Assembly (NCBI GenBank): GCA_021604505.1
Contig: BQJC01000003.1
Coordinates: 534,439 to 598,438 of the forward strand
Length of the DNA stretch: 64,000 nucleotides
Source of the DNA: Nitrospinaceae bacterium
GTDB lineage: Bacteria; Nitrospinota; Nitrospinia; Nitrospinales; VA-1
Reading direction: 5' to 3'
The position numbers were made by a program, and so were the translations under genes. Of this stretch, positions 27,838 to 52,303 are shown piece by piece. The notes beneath the pieces are model-generated. The model did not search any database. It saw only the letters and a program-made list of their open reading frames with translations, and had not been told where the DNA came from. The first letter of the stretch is position 1, and the number at the start of each line of letters is the position of its first letter.

Positions 27838-27956
27838 GCAAAATCCCGTTCTAAAGGAAGGGTTTACCAATGGGCCCTAACGTGGTAATTTTTGTGTCAA
27901 TGGGATGGGTTTTGGAAAAATAACCACAGATCAAATAACTTCAGGTGGATCCTGAC

Positions 27957-28283
27957 ATGACTGATAATACTGAAGGAAATTTGCCGAATAGGATTGTCGT
28001 AGAAATTGACCCCGACCTTGAGGAATTGATCCCAGGGTATCTTCAAAACCGCAAGAAAGATGTAGAAGGTGTCCAGGCGGCCTTGAATAACGGAGATTTT
28101 GATTTGATTCAACGCATGGGCCACACCATGAAAGGTTCCGGCGGAGGGTATGGTTTTGATTTCATTAGCGCCATCGGTTTGAATCTGGAAGAAGCCGCCA
28201 AAGAAAAGAACGTCGAAAAAATTCAGGAATCGCTGAGAAGCCTTTGCGATTTTCTTGAACGGGTGGACGTGGTATATAAATAA
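27957..28283 (+). CDS. Stand-alone Hpt (histidine phosphotransfer) protein
   Basis: This 108-residue four-helix protein contains the Hpt motif RMGHTMKGSGGGYGF, whose histidine accepts phosphate from a response-regulator receiver domain and passes it on in a phosphorelay. The rest (IQESLRSLCDFLERVDVVYK) is typical of the C-terminal helices. ATG 27957 is preferred to GTG 27945 because aggtgg sits eight bases upstream. No kinase or receiver gene is adjacent, so partners are unknown; the soluble PAS kinase at 55 kb is too far away to assign. It lies about 80 bases before the multihaem cytochrome operon. Confidence 0.85.
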   Translation: MTDNTEGNLPNRIVVEIDPDLEELIPGYLQNRKKDVEGVQAALNNGDFDLIQRMGHTMKGSGGGYGFDFISAIGLNLEEAAKEKNVEKIQESLRSLCDFLERVDVVYK

Positions 28284-28362: not shown

Positions 28363-30525
28363 GTGGTTAACTTGCGTTCGGCTTGCCTTTTAATTTTCCC
28401 GGTTGTGTTGATCGCCTTTTCCGTCCAGGCTCAGGAGATTGATTGGACGAGCTGGCAGGAAAAATTCAACCGGATGCAGACTCAAAAGGGCGCTCCTCCC
28501 GAGAACCCGAACCTCCGCATTAAGGACCTCGAAGTCACAGCAATATTAAAAGACGCGCCCCAGGTCCGGGTATCCAGCTTCCGCAATCAATCTCGGGAAA
28601 AATGCTTGACCTGCCACGATGGGATTGAAGAGGTCAGCGCCTCGCACCCCCGCGAGTTCGGCTGCACCGTGTGCCACGGAGGAAACGGAGATTCGGTGCA
28701 AAAAACAGAAGCCCACGCGACGCTGATATTTGATCCCAGTGCAGGGACCGGCAAACGCAATCCTTCCAGTCTCGCGGTGGTCGATAAGTCCTGCGGACAA
28801 ATGTTCTGTCACTCAGGCCATTCCCAGCCCGACCGCAATCACATTCAACGCGTCAAAAAATCGATGATGGCGACGCTCGCCGGTGTGATTTCCGGCCTGC
28901 GCTATCAATGGGCCGCGCAAAGCACACCGGACGCTAAATATGGCGTCTATCCAATAGCCGATGAAGACGGCCAGATTCCGGAGGAATGGGGGGCTGTACC
29001 GCACCTGGAGGCCTTGCCCCTGTTTTCTCCCCAAGACGGCAGAGAACAGCCGCGCCTTCTTGGAAAAATCCAGGCGGCGCGGGTTTCCCGTCACGTTGGG
29101 GACCGTCTGTTGCGGCAAAAGTGTTTTCAATGTCATCTTGATTCCCCGGGAGCGCCGGGAGAGTTTCGTTCCCAGGGATGTGCGGCCTGCCACTTCACCT
29201 ATTCCAAAGATGGTTTGTATCAAGGTGAGGATCCGACCCTTTCCCGGACGGAAACCGGTCACCCCGCATACCACAAAATGACCGCCTTGACTCCGAGCCT
29301 CATTTGCACCCAGTGTCATAAAACAACAGGCTCCCTCTCGAAACCTGAAACCGGAGAGGATTCTTCCCGTTCCGGGCTTTTCCCAGGGAAAGGGCTGACA
29401 AGGCAGGACATCCATTTCGAGAAGGGATTTGATTGTATTGACTGCCATACCCAGTTTGATATCATGGGCGATGGCAACCTCTATTCCAAGCAGAATCAAG
29501 CCGTTGAGATCAGGTGCGAAACCTGTCACGGAGACAGCGGTTCTTTGCCTGCCGCAAAAGAAGTGACCGACCCTGAAGACCGGGTGATACGCCTCAGTCA
29601 GCATTACAACGGTTGGACCAATTCCGTCAACGACCGCATGATTCTTTCAGCCCGCAACCGCAAATTGACCAACGTCAAAATACAAAACAATAAGCTGATC
29701 ACCCTTGGCAAAAAAAGCGGACGTGCGTACCGCACCCCGACGATTCGAGGAGGAAAAAAGGCGCATGTCATTCCGGCCCACATTAAAAAGCTGAAGTGCT
29801 CGGCCTGCCATTCACAATGGGTTCCCGAGTGCCGGGGTTGCCACTCCCTCTTGGTCAGTAGCGGCTCTCCCAAATCCGGGAATCAAAAGGACATACTCAG
29901 CTTCACTTCTTCACCGGAAGCAATTTCTCCCGCCCTCATGGTCGGTCCAAGGGGGAAAGTGGTTCCCATGCTTGGGCAACCTTCAAGAAAATTGACGTTT
30001 ATAGATGAACAAGGAAATCCGATCGCGGCTCTGGCAAAAAATAGCGACTTTCGAGGCCAATACCGCGAGTGGGCTTTTACCAATCCACACGGATATTCCG
30101 GTTCCAACACCGCCTATGCAGTGGCTCCCCATTCCGTTGGCAAAAAGGTGCGTTCCTGCGCCAGCTGTCATCTGTCGCCCAAAACTCTGGGTCTGGGTGA
30201 CGGGGACCTGTTTTTCGGTCGAAAACCGTCCGGAAAAGACGACCAAATGAAACCTTTGGTTCGATCGGATATCGTAAAGCATCGTTCCGTTTTTGCTCCC
30301 GACGCCAAGGTGGACGTTCTCGGAAAACCCTTGGCCGGAACCAGTCAATCGGGAGCCCGTCCTTTCAACCAGAAAGAAATCGCACGGATTCTCAGGGTCG
30401 GCAATTGCATTCCCTGCCACGACAGTTACAACGATCCGATCTACCGCAACATAAAAAAAAGTTATGGGTTTGAGAATAAAATTGCGCATCATAGACTCAG
30501 AAACAAAATTTTAAACAAGAAATAA
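28363..30525 (+). CDS. Periplasmic multihaem cytochrome c with 12 haem-binding sites (11 CxxCH + 1 Cx4CH)
   Basis: This 720-residue protein has a signal peptide (SACLLIFPVVLIAFSVQAQ) and eleven CxxCH motifs: CLTCH (from C81), CTVCH, CFQCH, CAACH, CTQCH, CIDCH, CETCH, CSACH, CRGCH, CASCH and CIPCH. An unusual C144-x4-C149-H150 stands in third position. The same position in the downstream paralogue is a normal CGKCH, so this is very likely a genuine haem site. The start is a GTG at 28363, with a TTG nine bases later as an alternative. I do not recognise it as NrfA, Hao, octahaem tetrathionate reductase or an MtrA/OmcS type. It is the first of four cytochrome genes packed with gaps of 0-8 bases, so it is probably part of one electron-transfer complex. 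Confidence 0.85.
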   Translation: MVNLRSACLLIFPVVLIAFSVQAQEIDWTSWQEKFNRMQTQKGAPPENPNLRIKDLEVTAILKDAPQVRVSSFRNQSREKCLTCHDGIEEVSASHPREFGCTVCHGGNGDSVQKTEAHATLIFDPSAGTGKRNPSSLAVVDKSCGQMFCHSGHSQPDRNHIQRVKKSMMATLAGVISGLRYQWAAQSTPDAKYGVYPIADEDGQIPEEWGAVPHLEALPLFSPQDGREQPRLLGKIQAARVSRHVGDRLLRQKCFQCHLDSPGAPGEFRSQGCAACHFTYSKDGLYQGEDPTLSRTETGHPAYHKMTALTPSLICTQCHKTTGSLSKPETGEDSSRSGLFPGKGLTRQDIHFEKGFDCIDCHTQFDIMGDGNLYSKQNQAVEIRCETCHGDSGSLPAAKEVTDPEDRVIRLSQHYNGWTNSVNDRMILSARNRKLTNVKIQNNKLITLGKKSGRAYRTPTIRGGKKAHVIPAHIKKLKCSACHSQWVPECRGCHSLLVSSGSPKSGNQKDILSFTSSPEAISPALMVGPRGKVVPMLGQPSRKLTFIDEQGNPIAALAKNSDFRGQYREWAFTNPHGYSGSNTAYAVAPHSVGKKVRSCASCHLSPKTLGLGDGDLFFGRKPSGKDDQMKPLVRSDIVKHRSVFAPDAKVDVLGKPLAGTSQSGARPFNQKEIARILRVGNCIPCHDSYNDPIYRNIKKSYGFENKIAHHRLRNKILNKK

Positions 30526-30533
30526 ATCCGCAA

Positions 30534-33440
30534 ATGCCCTTGTCAAAAAAATTCTGGATGGTCGCCCTGTTGGCGCTGTTACCGCTGGCAATGACGGCAT
30601 CCTCTCTTTTCGGCCAAATGGAAAACGAGATGGACGACCAAGGCCGTATCGAGTCTCAGCAGACGGATTTATTTCAATGGCCGCTTCCATTAGATAGTTC
30701 GGAAACTTCCGAGGAACAAAACGCTATTTCCGAATCCACCTTTACTGAAGAAGCGCCCCCGGCGACCTACCCCAAGGGAGAACCTTTAGAGGAAAAAACC
30801 TCCGAAGAACTGCCGCCCTTTTCACCGCAGGAAAAAAGAACCGTCGAGGTTCCCGAATTTCAAGACAAGCCCTTTGTGGACGCCGGCGATTTTCGCGATC
30901 CCTTTTTCCCCGTCCGCGGGTTTCAGAATGATTCCCCCCGGGTTTTAAAACCCGGAGTCACGGTGGATGGTCTTCAGTTTTTCTCGTATACCAATTCCAA
31001 CCCATTCATAGAAAATTTCTACCGCAACACCAATTTTTCGCTGAAACACGTTTTTGGAAAAGTCGTTCAATTAGAATCGGGCCGGGGATGCCTGCATTGT
31101 CACAATGGAATCGAAGAAATCAGCCCCAACCATAAATTCAGATGCACCCAATGCCATGGCGGAAACCGCCGGGCCAAATCCCTTCCCCAGGCACACAAAA
31201 ACTTAGTGGCCAACCCTTCGGATCTCGATCATGCCGCTAAGTTTTGCGGAAAATGCCACGCAGAAGAGATCGCAAAGGTGGAGCAATCCTCCATGACCAC
31301 CGCTAAGGGAATTATCAACACCACACGATACGCCTGGGGAGCCCAGTCTCATGCGGAAGGCATTTATTCCCTGCGTCCTAAGACCGAGGTCGGCGAGAGC
31401 CCACTGCCTTCTGCCGAAGGAGGTCACCCGGTCGATGCGCTTTTACGAACCAAATGCCTGCGCTGTCATGTCCAAGGACAGTCCCCCCACCGTTCGGGCG
31501 ATTACCGGGCCACTGGCTGTGCGTCCTGCCACATGATTTATGGAAACGATGGACTGACCTTGACACGGGATCGCGCCATCCAATCCCGACAACAAAATCA
31601 TGTCGAGGAAAATAAAACCCGGTTCCAGCAGAAATCATCTTCCCAGCCCCTGAAAAACAAACGCGGCTACCCCGTGATGCACAAATTCACACTGGCGATT
31701 CCCAGCGTCCAATGCGAGCATTGCCATAACGCCAACGGCGTCGGCAACGAATTCGAAGGCTTGTTGAGAAAACCCGCCCGGCCCCAGCTTGAACAATCCA
31801 AGGCTGACTCGGAGAAACCGGTTCTTTACGGAAGCGAACATGAGTTTTTGACTCCAGACATCCACCGCGAACGCGGAATGCATTGCATCGACTGCCACGG
31901 AATCAACGGAATCAAAGGTTCGTCCTCCTCCCCCGACCTTCACTCTAAAGTTGCGATCCGCTGTGAAGATTGTCATGGCACCCATTCCAGGGAGCCGGAT
32001 GAATTCTTGCTGGTGCAATCGGACCCCAACACAAAAGAAGTATTGAACAGCGTGAATCGGAATCCCAATCTAAGAAAAAAAATCCGGCCCGGAAACATCA
32101 TTCTCGTCAACTCCGAGGGAACCCGGATGCCGCACATCAAGCGCGATAAGAAACAATGGGTCCTGTATTCCAAAGTCACCGGCAAAAAACACGTCATCCC
32201 GATCCTGAAAAATATCAAACGCCCCGCCGCCCATCAGGTGACCAAACACATGGCCTCCATGGAATGCCACACGTGTCACGCCCGCTGGTCGGCCAGCGAC
32301 TGGGGAATGCACCTCATTAAAGAACCTTCGCTAAATTTGGAAAAATGGAAAAGCTGGAATTTTTCCGATCCGACCCTGCAACAGCTACTGTCCCAGGAAA
32401 ACCCTCAGGATGCGCCGGGAAAAATGCTCGACTGGTTAACGGCGACATCAAGCCCAAATGGCATCGAAGGCACATGGATCGACGGACTGTGGTGGAACGT
32501 TTTGACGGAAACCAGCTGGCAGGATATGATTCTCGGAAAAAACGCTCGCGGCAAATACACGGTCATGAAACCGCGCTACCAGTATTTCCTGACCGAACGT
32601 ACCGCTGACAATCAAACCCCGGAAAAAAGAGGGGAGGTCCTTAAAACGGTCGACGGAAGACCCGGCCTGATCCTGGTACCGCATACACCGCACACGATCC
32701 GAACAACGGCAAGAAGCTGTGAAAGCTGTCATGAAAATAATCTGGCGATGGGATTGGGAAATCCTTTAAAGCGTTCCGTCCTGGACGGCAAATTATTTTT
32801 CAACGAGTTTTATAAAAACAACCGCCTGCTTCCCGAATTTCAGCTCAAACAGGTTGTCACCGATAAGGGAACCGTTTTGCAAACCGCAGTGCCTCCCGGG
32901 AAAACCCGTTTTCTAAAAACAAGGGAGATCGATACCCTGGCGAAAAAAAGCAATTCGTACCGGGCGTTTCGTTACCTCAATCTTCGGAAACTGGGGTATC
33001 CCAGGCTTCTCATGCGCAATGAATTCCCCTACGACATCAGACATCAAGCCAACGAAAAAAACTACGGATCCCCTTCTCCGGTCGAGGACTTGTATTATGA
33101 TTTTGAAAAAAACCAGTTCTTTGCCTCCGGCACATCCTTAGAGGACATCCTTAAAAAACGGGCCCGGCCGTCCGAAAGCCCCACGGAACAACCATTCGAT
33201 GAACAACCGGATTTTCAGATCGAAATAGAAGAAGAACGTCCCTTTGATATTCACGAACCCCTTGCGGGACAACAGCCCCTGGAAAGCTTTCCTGAATCCC
33301 CAGACTCTCTCGAGCCCCCTAAAGAGCAAACCCTTGAAGAGGAAGGAAATTCCATCATAGAATTTTTCCAGGGCATTTTTGAAGAAGGTTCTAACCCGCC
33401 TTCCCCAGTAGAGCCGGATCAGCCACCCTTGACAGAATAA
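30534..33440 (+). CDS. Periplasmic decahaem cytochrome c, paralogue of the preceding gene, with acidic tails
   Basis: This 968-residue protein has a signal peptide (MVALLALLPLAMTASSLFG) and ten CxxCH motifs: CLHCH, CTQCH, CGKCH (from C238), CLRCH, CASCH, CEHCH, CIDCH, CEDCH, CHTCH and CESCH. Phrases around the haems line up with the preceding protein (CLHCHNGIEEIS with CLTCHDGIEEVS; TTRYAWGAQS with GLRYQWAAQS; CASCHMIYGNDGL with CAACHFTYSKDGL). Two haems of the paralogue are absent (its tenth and twelfth). What is added is an acidic, Pro/Glu-rich N-terminal region (about residues 25-150) and an acidic tail over the last 80 residues. No membrane helix other than the signal is seen. The start lies eight bases after the previous stop. 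Confidence 0.85.
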   Translation: MPLSKKFWMVALLALLPLAMTASSLFGQMENEMDDQGRIESQQTDLFQWPLPLDSSETSEEQNAISESTFTEEAPPATYPKGEPLEEKTSEELPPFSPQEKRTVEVPEFQDKPFVDAGDFRDPFFPVRGFQNDSPRVLKPGVTVDGLQFFSYTNSNPFIENFYRNTNFSLKHVFGKVVQLESGRGCLHCHNGIEEISPNHKFRCTQCHGGNRRAKSLPQAHKNLVANPSDLDHAAKFCGKCHAEEIAKVEQSSMTTAKGIINTTRYAWGAQSHAEGIYSLRPKTEVGESPLPSAEGGHPVDALLRTKCLRCHVQGQSPHRSGDYRATGCASCHMIYGNDGLTLTRDRAIQSRQQNHVEENKTRFQQKSSSQPLKNKRGYPVMHKFTLAIPSVQCEHCHNANGVGNEFEGLLRKPARPQLEQSKADSEKPVLYGSEHEFLTPDIHRERGMHCIDCHGINGIKGSSSSPDLHSKVAIRCEDCHGTHSREPDEFLLVQSDPNTKEVLNSVNRNPNLRKKIRPGNIILVNSEGTRMPHIKRDKKQWVLYSKVTGKKHVIPILKNIKRPAAHQVTKHMASMECHTCHARWSASDWGMHLIKEPSLNLEKWKSWNFSDPTLQQLLSQENPQDAPGKMLDWLTATSSPNGIEGTWIDGLWWNVLTETSWQDMILGKNARGKYTVMKPRYQYFLTERTADNQTPEKRGEVLKTVDGRPGLILVPHTPHTIRTTARSCESCHENNLAMGLGNPLKRSVLDGKLFFNEFYKNNRLLPEFQLKQVVTDKGTVLQTAVPPGKTRFLKTREIDTLAKKSNSYRAFRYLNLRKLGYPRLLMRNEFPYDIRHQANEKNYGSPSPVEDLYYDFEKNQFFASGTSLEDILKKRARPSESPTEQPFDEQPDFQIEIEEERPFDIHEPLAGQQPLESFPESPDSLEPPKEQTLEEEGNSIIEFFQGIFEEGSNPPSPVEPDQPPLTE

Positions 33441-33448
33441 AAAACCAC

Positions 33449-34117
33449 ATGCCGTTTATTATGCCCGCCTTATTATTTGCAGGGTTGATCTTGACAACAC
33501 CCGCTCAGGCCGATTCAACACTTCTCAATAAATATGATTGCACCTCGTGCCACCGGCTCACAAACGACGAGCCTAAAGAGTCATTTAAGGCCCCCGATTT
33601 GTTTTATGCCGGAAATAAATTTCAAAAATCCTGGCTGGAGAAATTCCTGCAAAACCCGGTGATCATCAGAAAAGCGGGAACCATAACCGATCCCGGATTT
33701 CTGCGAGGGACTCCCACTCTGGCGCGACCTCATCCCTCACTTCCCCCGGAAGAAGCGTTAGAAATGACCGAATTTTTGATGTCCCTGTCATTGCCCGAAC
33801 TGGCAACGGACCAGGTGGATGACACTCCTTTATCGAAAGGAAAAAAATCAAAAATCAAGATCCTGTTTGAGAGAAACTACGGTTGCATTGCCTGTCACGA
33901 AGGGATCAATCTGGCCGGTCAACCGCGGGGAGGCATTTCCGGCCCCTCCCTCGCCAACGCCGGAAACCGGCTGACTGCCGGCTGGGTTTACAATTGGCTG
34001 AAAACCCCTGAAAATTTTCTGGCCAGGGGCCGCATGCCCGCATACAAATTTGATGATGCAACCGCGGCACATCTCACGAAATATATAATGTCTCTCAAAA
34101 TCGGAGACTGGAATTAG
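33449..34117 (+). CDS. Dihaem cytochrome c
   Basis: This 222-residue periplasmic protein has a signal peptide (MPALLFAGLILTTPAQA) and two class-I-like cytochrome c domains. The first has CTSCH near residue 30 and the second CIACH near residue 148. Likely methionine axial ligands are visible in the second domain (ARGRMPAYKF). Such small dihaem proteins shuttle electrons between larger complexes. It starts eight bases after the decahaem gene and its stop directly abuts the next start codon, so it is co-translated with the other cytochromes of the cluster. Confidence 0.85.
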   Translation: MPFIMPALLFAGLILTTPAQADSTLLNKYDCTSCHRLTNDEPKESFKAPDLFYAGNKFQKSWLEKFLQNPVIIRKAGTITDPGFLRGTPTLARPHPSLPPEEALEMTEFLMSLSLPELATDQVDDTPLSKGKKSKIKILFERNYGCIACHEGINLAGQPRGGISGPSLANAGNRLTAGWVYNWLKTPENFLARGRMPAYKFDDATAAHLTKYIMSLKIGDWN

Positions 34118-34579
34118 ATGACTTTGAAAAACCAAACTGGGGCAATATTTTTTAGCGCGCTGCTCTTGCTGGTTACCGGCTGTGGGGAGAATGCGAAAGA
34201 AACCGCCCAAGGAGTCCCGCCTTCCCCAGCGCAGAAAACAGAGGCCCCTTCGCCACCGCCGGACTCCATTCCGGAAAAACACCTCGTCACCGCAAAAACC
34301 AGAGAGGTGTACCAGTGGTATTGCGCCCAATGCCATGGTCTGCAAGGCAAGGGCGACGGCATCAATGCCCGGCTGTTGACCGTCCCGCCGCGTGATCACA
34401 CCAAGGCGGACTATCTGGAAACCCGAAGCGATCAGCAATTATTCGACGCGATCAAAAAAGGCGGCCTCGCGGTCGGACGGGCTCCCTGCATGCCGAGCTG
34501 GGAGCACACGCTGGATGAGGACACCATGCATTCCCTCGTCCGCTACATCCGTGAATTATGCGAATGCGAGGCAATCTGA
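34118..34579 (+). CDS. Monohaem cytochrome c lipoprotein
   Basis: This 153-residue protein has a lipobox (LLLVTGC, lipidated Cys near residue 22), a Pro/Ser-rich tether (about residues 30-50) and one cytochrome c domain with CAQCH in WYCAQCHGLQGKGDG and a probable Met ligand in PCMPSW. It would sit anchored on a membrane surface with its haem on a flexible arm, a good arrangement for contacting the multihaem partners encoded upstream. The ATG follows the TAG of the dihaem gene without any gap. It is the last gene of the four-gene cytochrome operon; a promoter for the next operon follows. Confidence 0.85.
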   Translation: MTLKNQTGAIFFSALLLLVTGCGENAKETAQGVPPSPAQKTEAPSPPPDSIPEKHLVTAKTREVYQWYCAQCHGLQGKGDGINARLLTVPPRDHTKADYLETRSDQQLFDAIKKGGLAVGRAPCMPSWEHTLDEDTMHSLVRYIRELCECEAI

Positions 34580-48312: not shown

Positions 48313-48486
48313 TTTGTTGTTAAACGTTTGCTGAGATTTGCTGTGGGTTCCGTTTAAATGGTTTCAACGTTTGGGCTTATTTTTCAAAATTTTTTTACAA
48401 ATCAGTAAACTAGAGATAAAATTTAGAGTCCAAAAAGATTCATGGACCGCTTGAATTTTTCACATATTCCAAAAAAGGAATCAAAA

Positions 48487-49137
48487 ATGAAAAAAATTTT
48501 ACTAATTCTGTTTTTAATTCCTTCCATCGCTTTTGCGGCCCCCCTTCGGGAAAAACATGTTGAGCTTCCCGACTCAATGCCTGTTAAAGAGGGTAAAAAA
48601 CTATATCAGGAAAATAATTGCGCACTTTGCCATGGGGATCGGGGTCGGGGAGATGGCCCTCTCGCCAAAGACTTAAAAAATAAGCCTCGTGATTTTACAG
48701 ATTATGAAGAGATGAAACGCATGCCTACCATCCGCATGGAACAGGCAATACACAAAGGTCTTGATGGAACCGCCATGCCGTCTTTCAATCAATTTTCCGA
48801 ATCTCAAACTGAAGCCTTGACGAACTATCTGAGGTCATTTCTGGTAGATTCTTATCTCGACCTCAAAATGTGCGCTTTTCAAACGTATCATGTAGAGGCA
48901 AAAAAGCTGAGCGCCCCTTTTTCGGTGGAAATAGATGACCCTGAAAATTTTGAAGCGAAAATCCACGGACAAACCATTTCATTCAGTGGAAAAAACTGGA
49001 CGAAACTACAGGGCAAAAAAAGACATCGAACTCATTTCAAGGTAATACAAAATGGCCGCATCGTATCCCTGATCTCGGTAAAAATTCAGGGTTGCCAAAA
49101 AGAGGTGAAGCAATTATTAAATAAAGTCTCTCCTTAG
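48487..49137 (+). CDS. Periplasmic monohaem cytochrome c (tandem copy 1)
   Basis: This 216-residue protein has a signal peptide (KKILLILFLIPSIAFA) and one class-I cytochrome c domain with CALCH in NNCALCHGDRGRGDGPLAKDLKNKP and a probable Met ligand in GTAMPSF. A C-terminal part of about 100 residues, with two further cysteines, is shared only with the next gene. ATG 48487 is used because aaaggaa lies just before it and the signal peptide begins directly. The C-terminal domain matches nothing I recognise. A near copy follows at 49725. Confidence 0.85.
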   Translation: MKKILLILFLIPSIAFAAPLREKHVELPDSMPVKEGKKLYQENNCALCHGDRGRGDGPLAKDLKNKPRDFTDYEEMKRMPTIRMEQAIHKGLDGTAMPSFNQFSESQTEALTNYLRSFLVDSYLDLKMCAFQTYHVEAKKLSAPFSVEIDDPENFEAKIHGQTISFSGKNWTKLQGKKRHRTHFKVIQNGRIVSLISVKIQGCQKEVKQLLNKVSP

Positions 49138-49724: not shown

Positions 49725-50393
49725 ATGAAAAAATTTATTCTTCCCTTGCTACTATTCCCCGCCATTGCTTTTGCGGGCCCCTCTCAACTGAAATTTACAT
49801 CCTTACCCGCTCCAATATCCATTAAAGAAGGTAAAAAGCTGTATCAAGATAATGGTTGTGCCATGTGCCACGGGGACCAGGGGCAGGGAGACGGCCCGCT
49901 CGCCAGCAGGATCAAAAATAAACCTCGCAATTTTAAAGATTATGAAGAAATGAAACGCATGCCCACCATCGGCATGGAGCAGGCAATACATGAAGGTCTC
50001 AAAGGAACCGCCATGCCGGCGTTCAGCCAATTCTCACAACCGGAAATCGAAGTACTGACCGACTATTTAAGATCGTTCCTGATAGACTCATACATTGATC
50101 TTAAAATGTGCGCCTTCGAAACCTATCATATAGACGCCAAAAATCTGAAAAAGACCTTTACCGTAGAAGCCGATGAACCGACGAAGTATGAAGTGAAAGT
50201 CAGCGGAAAAACCATCTCATTTCGCGGAAAAAACTGGACAAACCTACTGGATCGAAAGGGGCATCGTACCCATTTCAGGGTGATTCAGGACGGCCGCATC
50301 GTATCCCTGATCTCGGTAAAAATTCAAAGTTGTAAAAAAGAGATGGATCAGATGTTAAAAAGTCTTCCCTTGCGAAAAGCCGAAAACAGGTAA
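49725..50393 (+). CDS. Periplasmic monohaem cytochrome c (tandem copy 2)
   Basis: This 222-residue paralogue of the gene at 48487 has a signal peptide (KKFILPLLLFPAIAFA), CAMCH in NGCAMCHGDQGQGDGPLASRIKNKP, GTAMPAF as the probable Met-ligand segment, and the same roughly 100-residue C-terminal part (LKMCAFETYHIDAKNL, FRVIQDGRIVSLISVKIQSC). High identity along the whole length, together with the copied tRNA tail upstream, shows a tandem segmental duplication. A perfect terminator follows at 50463. Confidence 0.87.
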   Translation: MKKFILPLLLFPAIAFAGPSQLKFTSLPAPISIKEGKKLYQDNGCAMCHGDQGQGDGPLASRIKNKPRNFKDYEEMKRMPTIGMEQAIHEGLKGTAMPAFSQFSQPEIEVLTDYLRSFLIDSYIDLKMCAFETYHIDAKNLKKTFTVEADEPTKYEVKVSGKTISFRGKNWTNLLDRKGHRTHFRVIQDGRIVSLISVKIQSCKKEMDQMLKSLPLRKAENR

Positions 50394-50551: not shown

Positions 50552-52303
50552 CTATTTGGAGGCAAGTTCAAAATCAGCTTGCGCATCAACTCCGCCGGTC
50601 ACAGTCACTTCCTGACTCACCTCGCCAATGTAGGGATGCCAGGCCGTCACCCAATACTTCCCGGCGGGAATTTGATCAATTTTGAAAGCACCGTCCGCTT
50701 CGCTCACCGAATAATAAGGATTCCACACCACACGGGCGTCAGCTTCCATGAAATTGTGCTGGTCGCACTGCAAGAAGAAATGTTTATCCTTGGAAGCCTT
50801 GAACCGTTTGAAATTCTTAGTGACGTCTGCAACGTCCCCTTTAGAGGGCAAAGGTTTATTGAACAGGGTTTTCCGATTAGCGCCGGCAACAGAATAGCCG
50901 TGCGGATTATGCAGTATATCGGGGTCCTGATTGGTGATCGTCAGCAAACCGGTTTTCATCCCCTTTGGGGTTTTTCGAACGGTCGAAACTTTCGGAAAAA
51001 CATCACACGTCTTAAAATCAAAATTCGTGACTGCCGTAGGCCATTCTTTTCCTTTTTCAATATTTTGAATGAACACAACGGCATCTTCCAACTTACCCTT
51101 GTTGACGACAACCTTCACGCGCGGACGGATCGTGCCGTTTGCATCCGGATGAGTGGAACAAAATTCTACATTTTTCCCTTTGCTCAAATCTTCCATAATG
51201 GGTGCAGGCGCGGTTCCTGAAAAATGAACCATTCCGCTGATCGATCCACCGTTGCTCACGGTCCCTTCCTCATACTTCCCTGAAACTTTAAAACCTGCAG
51301 GAAGCGGGCTTTGGACGATTGCAGTTTTTGGCGCGGGAGCAGGTGCTTTCGCCACCACCGGTTCTGCGGGTGATTCAACCTTGGCAGCAGTCTTCCCGGT
51401 AACAGGTTTGGAGGTGGTTTTCGCAGCCGGTGGGGTTACACCGGAAAAAGCGGAGCGGATGTATTTGACCACATCCCAAATTTCATTGTCCTTCAATGAC
51501 TTTTTGTGAGCCACCATTCCGGTTCCAGGCGATCCGTTTTTGATGATCCAGAACATCTGGCCGGCGGAGACATCCTTCATGGTTTCCTGGCAGGTGAAGT
51601 TCCGCGGTGTCGGCTTCAACGCCGCACCCAGCTTTCCTTTACCATCACCATTATCTCCATGACACATTGTGCAGGCCATGGGTTTTGCGGTCTTATTGTA
51701 AATTTTCTCGCCGTTACCGACATTTGCCCTATCGGTCCTGTCCATCTTAGCGATATTGGCAGGTGCCGACTTGGTTTTTCTAGTCTGAGGGCAAGGTCCG
51801 GAGGCCTTCTTCACCAGGGTGGTTGTTTTAGAAGGTTGCGTCGCGGGTTCTGTTTTCGCGGGAACCGCGGTTTCAATGATTTGCTTTGCGGATTCCTTCT
51901 TGGCCGGCGCTTCCCTGGAAACCGGCGCAACTTTTTCAGCCGAAGCCAATGGAGCTTCAGGCGCAATGGTTTTCTGAGTTGTCTGGACGGGAGCCGCTAT
52001 TTCACTCGACGGAGTTTCGGTCAAGGATGAAAACAGACGCTTTTTCGTTTCATCATCCAATCGTCCACTTGCGGGAAGCCCTTCCTTCTCTTGAAACTGT
52101 GTGACCGCGCGTTTCGTCAAAGGCCCCCAGAGGCCGTCCACAGGCCCCGGATTGATTCCCATTGCAACTAATGATTCCTGTGCCTTTCTAACCAGCTCTC
52201 CCGCCAGCAAATTGGAAACTCCGATTTGGAGAAAAACGAATACCGTTATGGTGATGACAAAAAACCTATGATTCAACGAATTGGACCCTTCGGAGTTTCT
52301 CAT
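50552..52303 (-). CDS. Fusion: peptidoglycan-binding domain + cytochrome c + cupredoxin-like domain
   Basis: This 583-residue exported protein has a leader (FFVITITVFVFLQIGVSNLLAG), then a PG_binding_1 domain (VRKAQESLVAMGINPGPVDGLWG, about residues 38-95). An Ala/Pro/Lys/Thr-rich linker follows, then a cytochrome c domain (CTMCHGDNGDGKGKLGAALKP, with GTGMVAHK as the probable Met ligand). A second linker precedes a C-terminal region with a blue-copper-type site: a His in DILHNPHGYS and C-x2-H-x2-M in LQCDQHNFMEADARV. That spacing is the amicyanin-like type-1 copper pattern. The last 50 residues (DGAFKIDQIPAGKYWVTAWHP) resemble a carboxypeptidase-regulatory-like beta-sandwich. It could wire copper and haem together on the cell wall. 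Confidence 0.82.
   Translation of the reverse strand: MRNSEGSNSLNHRFFVITITVFVFLQIGVSNLLAGELVRKAQESLVAMGINPGPVDGLWGPLTKRAVTQFQEKEGLPASGRLDDETKKRLFSSLTETPSSEIAAPVQTTQKTIAPEAPLASAEKVAPVSREAPAKKESAKQIIETAVPAKTEPATQPSKTTTLVKKASGPCPQTRKTKSAPANIAKMDRTDRANVGNGEKIYNKTAKPMACTMCHGDNGDGKGKLGAALKPTPRNFTCQETMKDVSAGQMFWIIKNGSPGTGMVAHKKSLKDNEIWDVVKYIRSAFSGVTPPAAKTTSKPVTGKTAAKVESPAEPVVAKAPAPAPKTAIVQSPLPAGFKVSGKYEEGTVSNGGSISGMVHFSGTAPAPIMEDLSKGKNVEFCSTHPDANGTIRPRVKVVVNKGKLEDAVVFIQNIEKGKEWPTAVTNFDFKTCDVFPKVSTVRKTPKGMKTGLLTITNQDPDILHNPHGYSVAGANRKTLFNKPLPSKGDVADVTKNFKRFKASKDKHFFLQCDQHNFMEADARVVWNPYYSVSEADGAFKIDQIPAGKYWVTAWHPYIGEVSQEVTVTGGVDAQADFELASK

Follow-up and report, generated by a model that had tools for sequence, protein, structure and literature searches.

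A 12- and 10-haem cytochrome pair of Nitrospinales as a candidate detached half of a Rieske/cytochrome b complex

The window, that is, the whole stretch of 64,000 nucleotides that was analysed, belongs to contig C3 of a 3.64 Mb Nitrospinaceae genome, from a lineage related to the main nitrite-oxidising bacteria of the ocean. It contains four cytochrome genes, here named A to D, which follow each other on the plus strand with gaps of 8, 8 and 0 bases in the ORF list (Table 1). Their products carry 12, 10, 2 and 1 haem sites, respectively, 25 in total. This agreed with the earlier note on this DNA, which had described a packed four-gene operon encoding about 25 haems, with a dihaem cytochrome and a haem-bearing lipoprotein next to the large pair. 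The window presented 29 CXXCH-type DNA motifs against the 3.07 expected from shuffles (maximum of 7 in 100), and the four genes hold 24 of the plus-strand matches. Signal peptides, and likewise the D lipobox, were assigned by eye.

A gene coding for a single Hpt domain ends 79 bases 5' of A. Most Nitrospinales loci have a same-strand Hpt homologue directly 5' of A (gap of -7 to 147 bases), and we have therefore extended the block upstream to this gene, which is probably its first member. Hpt is an odd regulator to accompany cytochromes.

Table 1. Genes of the cytochrome block and the Hpt gene preceding it (positions in the window)
Feature	Position	Strand	Remarks
Hpt (histidine phosphotransfer) single-domain gene	27945..28283	+	PF01627, E 4.6e-8
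A, 12-haem cytochrome, ExtM superfamily	28363..30525	+	720 aa, putatively exported (signal peptide by reading)
B, 10-haem paralogue of A	30534..33440	+	968 aa, putatively exported (signal peptide by reading)
C, dihaem class I cytochrome c	33449..34117	+	222 aa, putatively exported (signal peptide by reading)
D, monohaem cytochrome c lipoprotein	34118..34579	+	153 aa; lipobox LLVTGC by reading

The haem sites of A consist of 11 CXXCH motifs and one CX4CH (CGQMFCH, residue 144), the latter being the third site and invariant across all orthologues checked. The haem counts of the four proteins were also constant in every orthologue checked. A and B aligned by BLASTP over ~630 residues (E 3e-52), and the site-by-site alignment revealed that B is devoid of site 10 (CRGCH in A, DWGMH in B) and of site 12 (CIPCH), and that it has long acidic extensions at both the N- and C-terminus. 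The two proteins are thus paralogues that match haem by haem except for the tenth and twelfth sites, as had been proposed. Outside the motifs, the conserved residues comprise eight His and two Met for the 12 haems of A, and nine His for the ten haems of B. These numbers suggest that some A haems may be without a fixed distal ligand.

The predicted structure of A had a pLDDT of 68.8 and a pTM of 0.70, and its comparison with solved folds returned exclusively meaningless matches (all with E above 0.5). The B model (pLDDT 40.8) was too poor for a fold search. When A and B were compared with PDB sequences, the best E values were 0.18 (A, with an NrfA chain) and 0.068 (B), both insignificant, which upheld the earlier view that the pair matches none of NrfA, Hao, Otr, MtrA and OmcS.

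The results diverged from the same note as regards its assignment of the large proteins to no recognised family. Both matched the NCBIfam ExtM profile NF040943, A with an E of 3.8e-83 (279.8 bits) and B with an E of 1.5e-58 (198.6 bits), which ruled out a family without recognised relatives. Both scores are below the curated ExtM cut-off of 800 bits, which was exceeded in none of the 77 phylum genomes. In haem register with an ExtM-like protein, A matched 12 of 12 sites and B 10 of 12. As judged from sequence, A and B belong to the ExtM superfamily, short of the curated cut-off. In the Geobacter extHIJKLMNOPQS cluster (PMC5877670), ExtM is the 12-haem and ExtN the 10-haem cytochrome, and B also matched the ExtN profile NF040967 (E 8.7e-17), its 61.1 bits being below the cut-off of 200 bits. 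A correspondence between B and ExtN is suggested only by position and weak similarity. ExtM being a family named without a demonstrated biochemical function, the refuting result set out in the earlier note, a strong full-length match of both proteins to a characterised family of known function, was obtained only in part. Viral contigs contained no A or B relatives, and plasmids yielded only weak partial matches, of ~160 residues, in Sphingobium and Sphingopyxis.

Within the phylum, orthologues of A were present in 57 of 77 genomes, in 27 of the 31 good genomes and in 27 of the 28 good genomes of the order. The order Hpt-A-B-C-D was conserved across Nitrospinales together with the downstream neighbours, so the synteny that the earlier note wished to see surveyed holds throughout the order, with one arrangement exception (G057) in which A-B and C-D occupy separate loci. 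Three of the four good genomes without A come from other orders and the remaining one, G030 (97% complete, 1.7 Mb), from the same family. In G030, A-B are missing although the cytochrome b core, C and an NXR-like alpha subunit are retained. Hence, A-B are not strictly essential and the core exists without them in this genome. The NXR alpha-subunit scan of the phylum (threshold 1e-60) was too strict for these diverged subunits, and it contributed its positives alone, G030 among them. The product of L062:5107-9087 (G009:C26), a gene that adjoins other haem-bearing ORFs, is a nine-haem protein of 1326 aa that matches ExtM in part.

The earlier note had left the partners of the operon open. Indeed, neither the window nor any of 20 Nitrospinales neighbourhoods has a Rieske or cytochrome b gene adjoining A-B, and the question was largely answered by related pairs in other bacteria and by a core encoded elsewhere in this genome. 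We have scanned one genome per species with an alignment of A, B and ExtM-like proteins, and the 80 best loci came from many phyla. In Desulfocapsa (L107 and L111), Thermodesulfovibrionales (L109) and a Nitrospirae MAG (L119), a single operon has the order Rieske - cytochrome b - subunit IV - octahaem c - D - A - B, with the gene identities taken from Pfam. The A and B orthologues of such operons displayed 35-39% identity, and their occurrence in Desulfocapsa and Thermodesulfovibrionales ruled out that the operon is limited to nitrite oxidisers. The phylum of L107, Desulfobacterota/Thermodesulfobacteriota, contributed further A-type genes (395 genomes scanned).

Outside Nitrospinota, a six-frame check located Rieske and cytochrome b in the cluster at 14 of the 15 readable A-B-type pair loci (L203 being the sole one without them); L108 and L110, interrupted by contig ends, were left out of the 15. 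Geobacter-type loci have the order ExtM - ExtN - Rieske - cytochrome b - small subunit IV-like protein - ExtS, and this cluster has been termed a putative bc complex (PMC2825233). Ten Desulfobacterota loci (L195-L202, L208 and L211) have, between B and Rieske, a subunit IV-like ORF of ~120-150 aa that runs on the opposite strand; the one of L196 gave a weak PF00032 match.

We have then placed the sequences in a tree of 80 rows, built by a quick method with SH-aLRT as the only support. The Nitrospinota A proteins were sister to those of Desulfocapsa/Thermodesulfovibrionales, and one group (99, 38 rows) gathered both with the Desulfobacterota A-like proteins and the bc-linked ExtM of Geobacter, most solo ExtM falling outside this bc-linked clade. 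The B rows, outside orthologues included, formed a separate supported group whose branching order resembles that of A. Since the B group mirrors the A topology, the A-B pair appears old and co-inherited.

The best match of the L109 cytochrome b in the genome under study was found on another contig (C1:1269600-1270352, 68% identical), within an orthologous core of Rieske, cytochrome b, subunit IV and octahaem genes (C1:1268873-1273912). The gene order of this core is the same as in L109 and L119, with identities of 49% for Rieske, 71% for cytochrome b (to L119), 44% for subunit IV and 28-31% for the octahaem protein. Its cytochrome b is of the b6 type, its octahaem subunit has eight haems, and the cytochrome b of the core was present in all 31 good phylum genomes. 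The C1 core corresponds to the complex III of N. gracilis, described with an atypical octahaem cytochrome (PMC3578206); in the accessible text of that account, the octahaem protein is the sole cytochrome c named beside the core, A and B being unnamed. The Rieske gene of the complex III operon is closely preceded, on its 5' side, by a gene for a pyridine nucleotide-disulphide oxidoreductase (L171:5364-6731, G000:C1); NAD(P) oxidoreductase subunits belong to two of the Kuenenia complexes.

The two smaller cytochromes have a distribution of their own, with C matches in 72 of the 77 phylum genomes. D has a C-terminal LCxC motif. In the Desulfocapsa/Thermodesulfovibrionales operons, the D-type gene immediately preceding A has it as well and the other D-like paralogues do not, which ties D to the bc operons. 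LCxC was also observed in D-type proteins of sister lineages. In sister lineages of the phylum without A-B, C and D stand together. At L074:7945-10055 (G072), they adjoin a copper nitrite reductase-like (NirK-like) gene (TIGR02376, 170 bits of 296), and at L071 they lie, without A-B, beside a bd-like oxidase and a DMSO-reductase-II-gamma/alt-NxrC-like gene. C-D look like a portable carrier pair. Elsewhere in the window, two near-duplicate monohaem proteins similar to D-like cytochromes are encoded at 48442-49137 and 49725-50393, with a 583-aa protein containing a cytochrome c motif on the opposite strand (50552-52303). The segment 58010-60959 contains a NuoL-like proton-antiporter gene (PF00361) followed by a gene for a 412-aa membrane protein without Pfam match.

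Because orthologous and related pairs cluster with Rieske and cytochrome b, and an orthologous core is encoded in the same genome, we consider it reasonably probable that a complex III-type quinol:cytochrome c oxidoreductase, of the Rieske/cytochrome b kind, has A and B as its pair of large periplasmic c-type cytochromes and A-B-C-D as its detached second half. Its membrane core would then consist of Rieske, b6-type cytochrome b, subunit IV and octahaem c, encoded in this lineage at a separate chromosomal locus. From the homology, the haem map, the gene neighbourhoods and the core of the same genome, all directly observed, we infer a physical association in which A and B would form a heteromeric haem wire or reservoir for the electrons that the octahaem subunit exchanges with small carriers (dihaem C and lipoprotein D, for instance). 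The heteromeric electron-transfer role put forward before is supported as probable. As to substrate and direction, the flow in a nitrite oxidiser would be reversed, from nitrite-derived cytochrome c to quinone, or alternatively would run forward during the respiration of reserves. Somewhat unlikely, in our judgement, is the bolder proposal that A, B and D together with the Rieske/b6/subunit IV/octahaem core constitute a supercomplex of ~30 c-type haems that would feed nitrite-derived electrons backwards to quinone, as a previously unnamed reverse electron transport module of Nitrospinales.

Some points weigh against a partner role of the pair. The core is not linked to A-B-C-D in this genome, which leaves orthology as the basis of an association here, and neither of the structural models backs a complex. 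In addition, the octahaem c may itself be the sole c subunit and, to our knowledge, Geobacter extM is without a proven bc function.

An alternative is extracellular electron transfer, with A and B exchanging electrons across the cell surface with minerals of iron or manganese. In the accessible text of a 2025 paper on a subsea tunnel, Nitrospinaceae MAGs including OFTM6 have multihaem genes, with as many as 12 haem sites, in clusters of three or more, and an interaction with metals is suggested while the role is called unclear (PMC11995701). OFTM6 does carry A-B (locus L150). Moreover, ExtM is entered as extracellular in a localisation table (PMC13194489) and was detected in the outer and inner membranes as well as in the periplasm (PMC5877670). 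However, the recurrent partners of the pair are Rieske and cytochrome b of the inner membrane, and no porin or outer-membrane conduit gene was noticed when the ORFs around the operon were read by eye. We consider this explanation unlikely. We regard as similarly improbable that the block is a carrier set on the nitrite or NO side, where C and D would shuttle for NXR or NirK and A-B would buffer electrons independently of complex III. The C-D loci without A-B (L074 and L071) would fit such a set, as would the mono- and dihaem cytochrome placed within the NXR-associated genes in the accessible text of Lucker et al. (PMC3578206). Yet A-B do not track NXR outside Nitrospinales, considering that an A-type protein occurred in only 1 of 296 sampled Nitrospirota genomes (E 1e-100), that of L109 itself, and that G030 has the NXR-like gene and no A-B. 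Nitrospirota, the phylum of L109, includes Nitrospira.

It is very unlikely that A or B is a terminal reductase using quinol-pool electrons to reduce a soluble acceptor (selenite, tellurite, or a nitrogen or sulfur oxyanion). The NCBIfam name of ExtM does derive from a selenite/tellurite operon, and A haems that may lack a fixed distal ligand would suit catalysis. On the other hand, the nine conserved His for the ten haems of B speak against it, none of the catalytic motifs of known multihaem reductases was found, and in the accessible text on Geobacter the mutant described is that of the porin-like extI and not of extM (PMC5877670).

The uphill electron path of nitrite oxidisers, from cytochrome c to quinone via complex III, is a long-standing question. 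If A-B-C-D is indeed the detached half, complex III has an overlooked complement of 25 haems, and the role of the several cytochromes in the conserved Geobacter cluster, flagged as unexplained in 2010, becomes testable in a second setting.

Among known systems, the solo ExtM-like proteins (of Nitrospira, Shewanella, Myxococcota and others) share the superfamily of A and mostly its 12 sites, but they have neither a second paralogue nor a Rieske or cytochrome b detected nearby. The N. gracilis complex III with octahaem c, of a type also found in Methylomirabilis (PMC3578206) and Kuenenia (PMC12954380), has the same kind of core as the proposed A-B partner, whereas the accessible text of both accounts gives the octahaem subunit alone next to the core. 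The Desulfocapsa/Thermodesulfovibrionales operon has orthologous A, B and D along with the membrane core, the main differences being that it is a single operon, split in Nitrospinales, that it has extra D-like and tetrahaem genes, and that a separate dihaem C is present in Nitrospinales. The Geobacter extMNOPQS genes (GSU2935-2930; PMC2825233, PMC5877670) likewise contain a 12- and 10-haem pair, clustered there with Rieske, cytochrome b, a small membrane protein and a c-type lipoprotein. A matches ExtM at all 12 sites, but has CX4CH at site 3, and B is far larger than ExtN (~415 aa) and nearer to ExtM in sequence; the Nitrospinales A-B also differ in having no adjacent Rieske/b genes, and neither a selenoprotein nor a porin gene was seen next to the pair. 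Thus, A-B is probably a variant of the already known Geobacter-type bc-complex cytochrome pair, the new elements being its separation from the core, the invariant CX4CH and the setting in a nitrite-oxidiser lineage.
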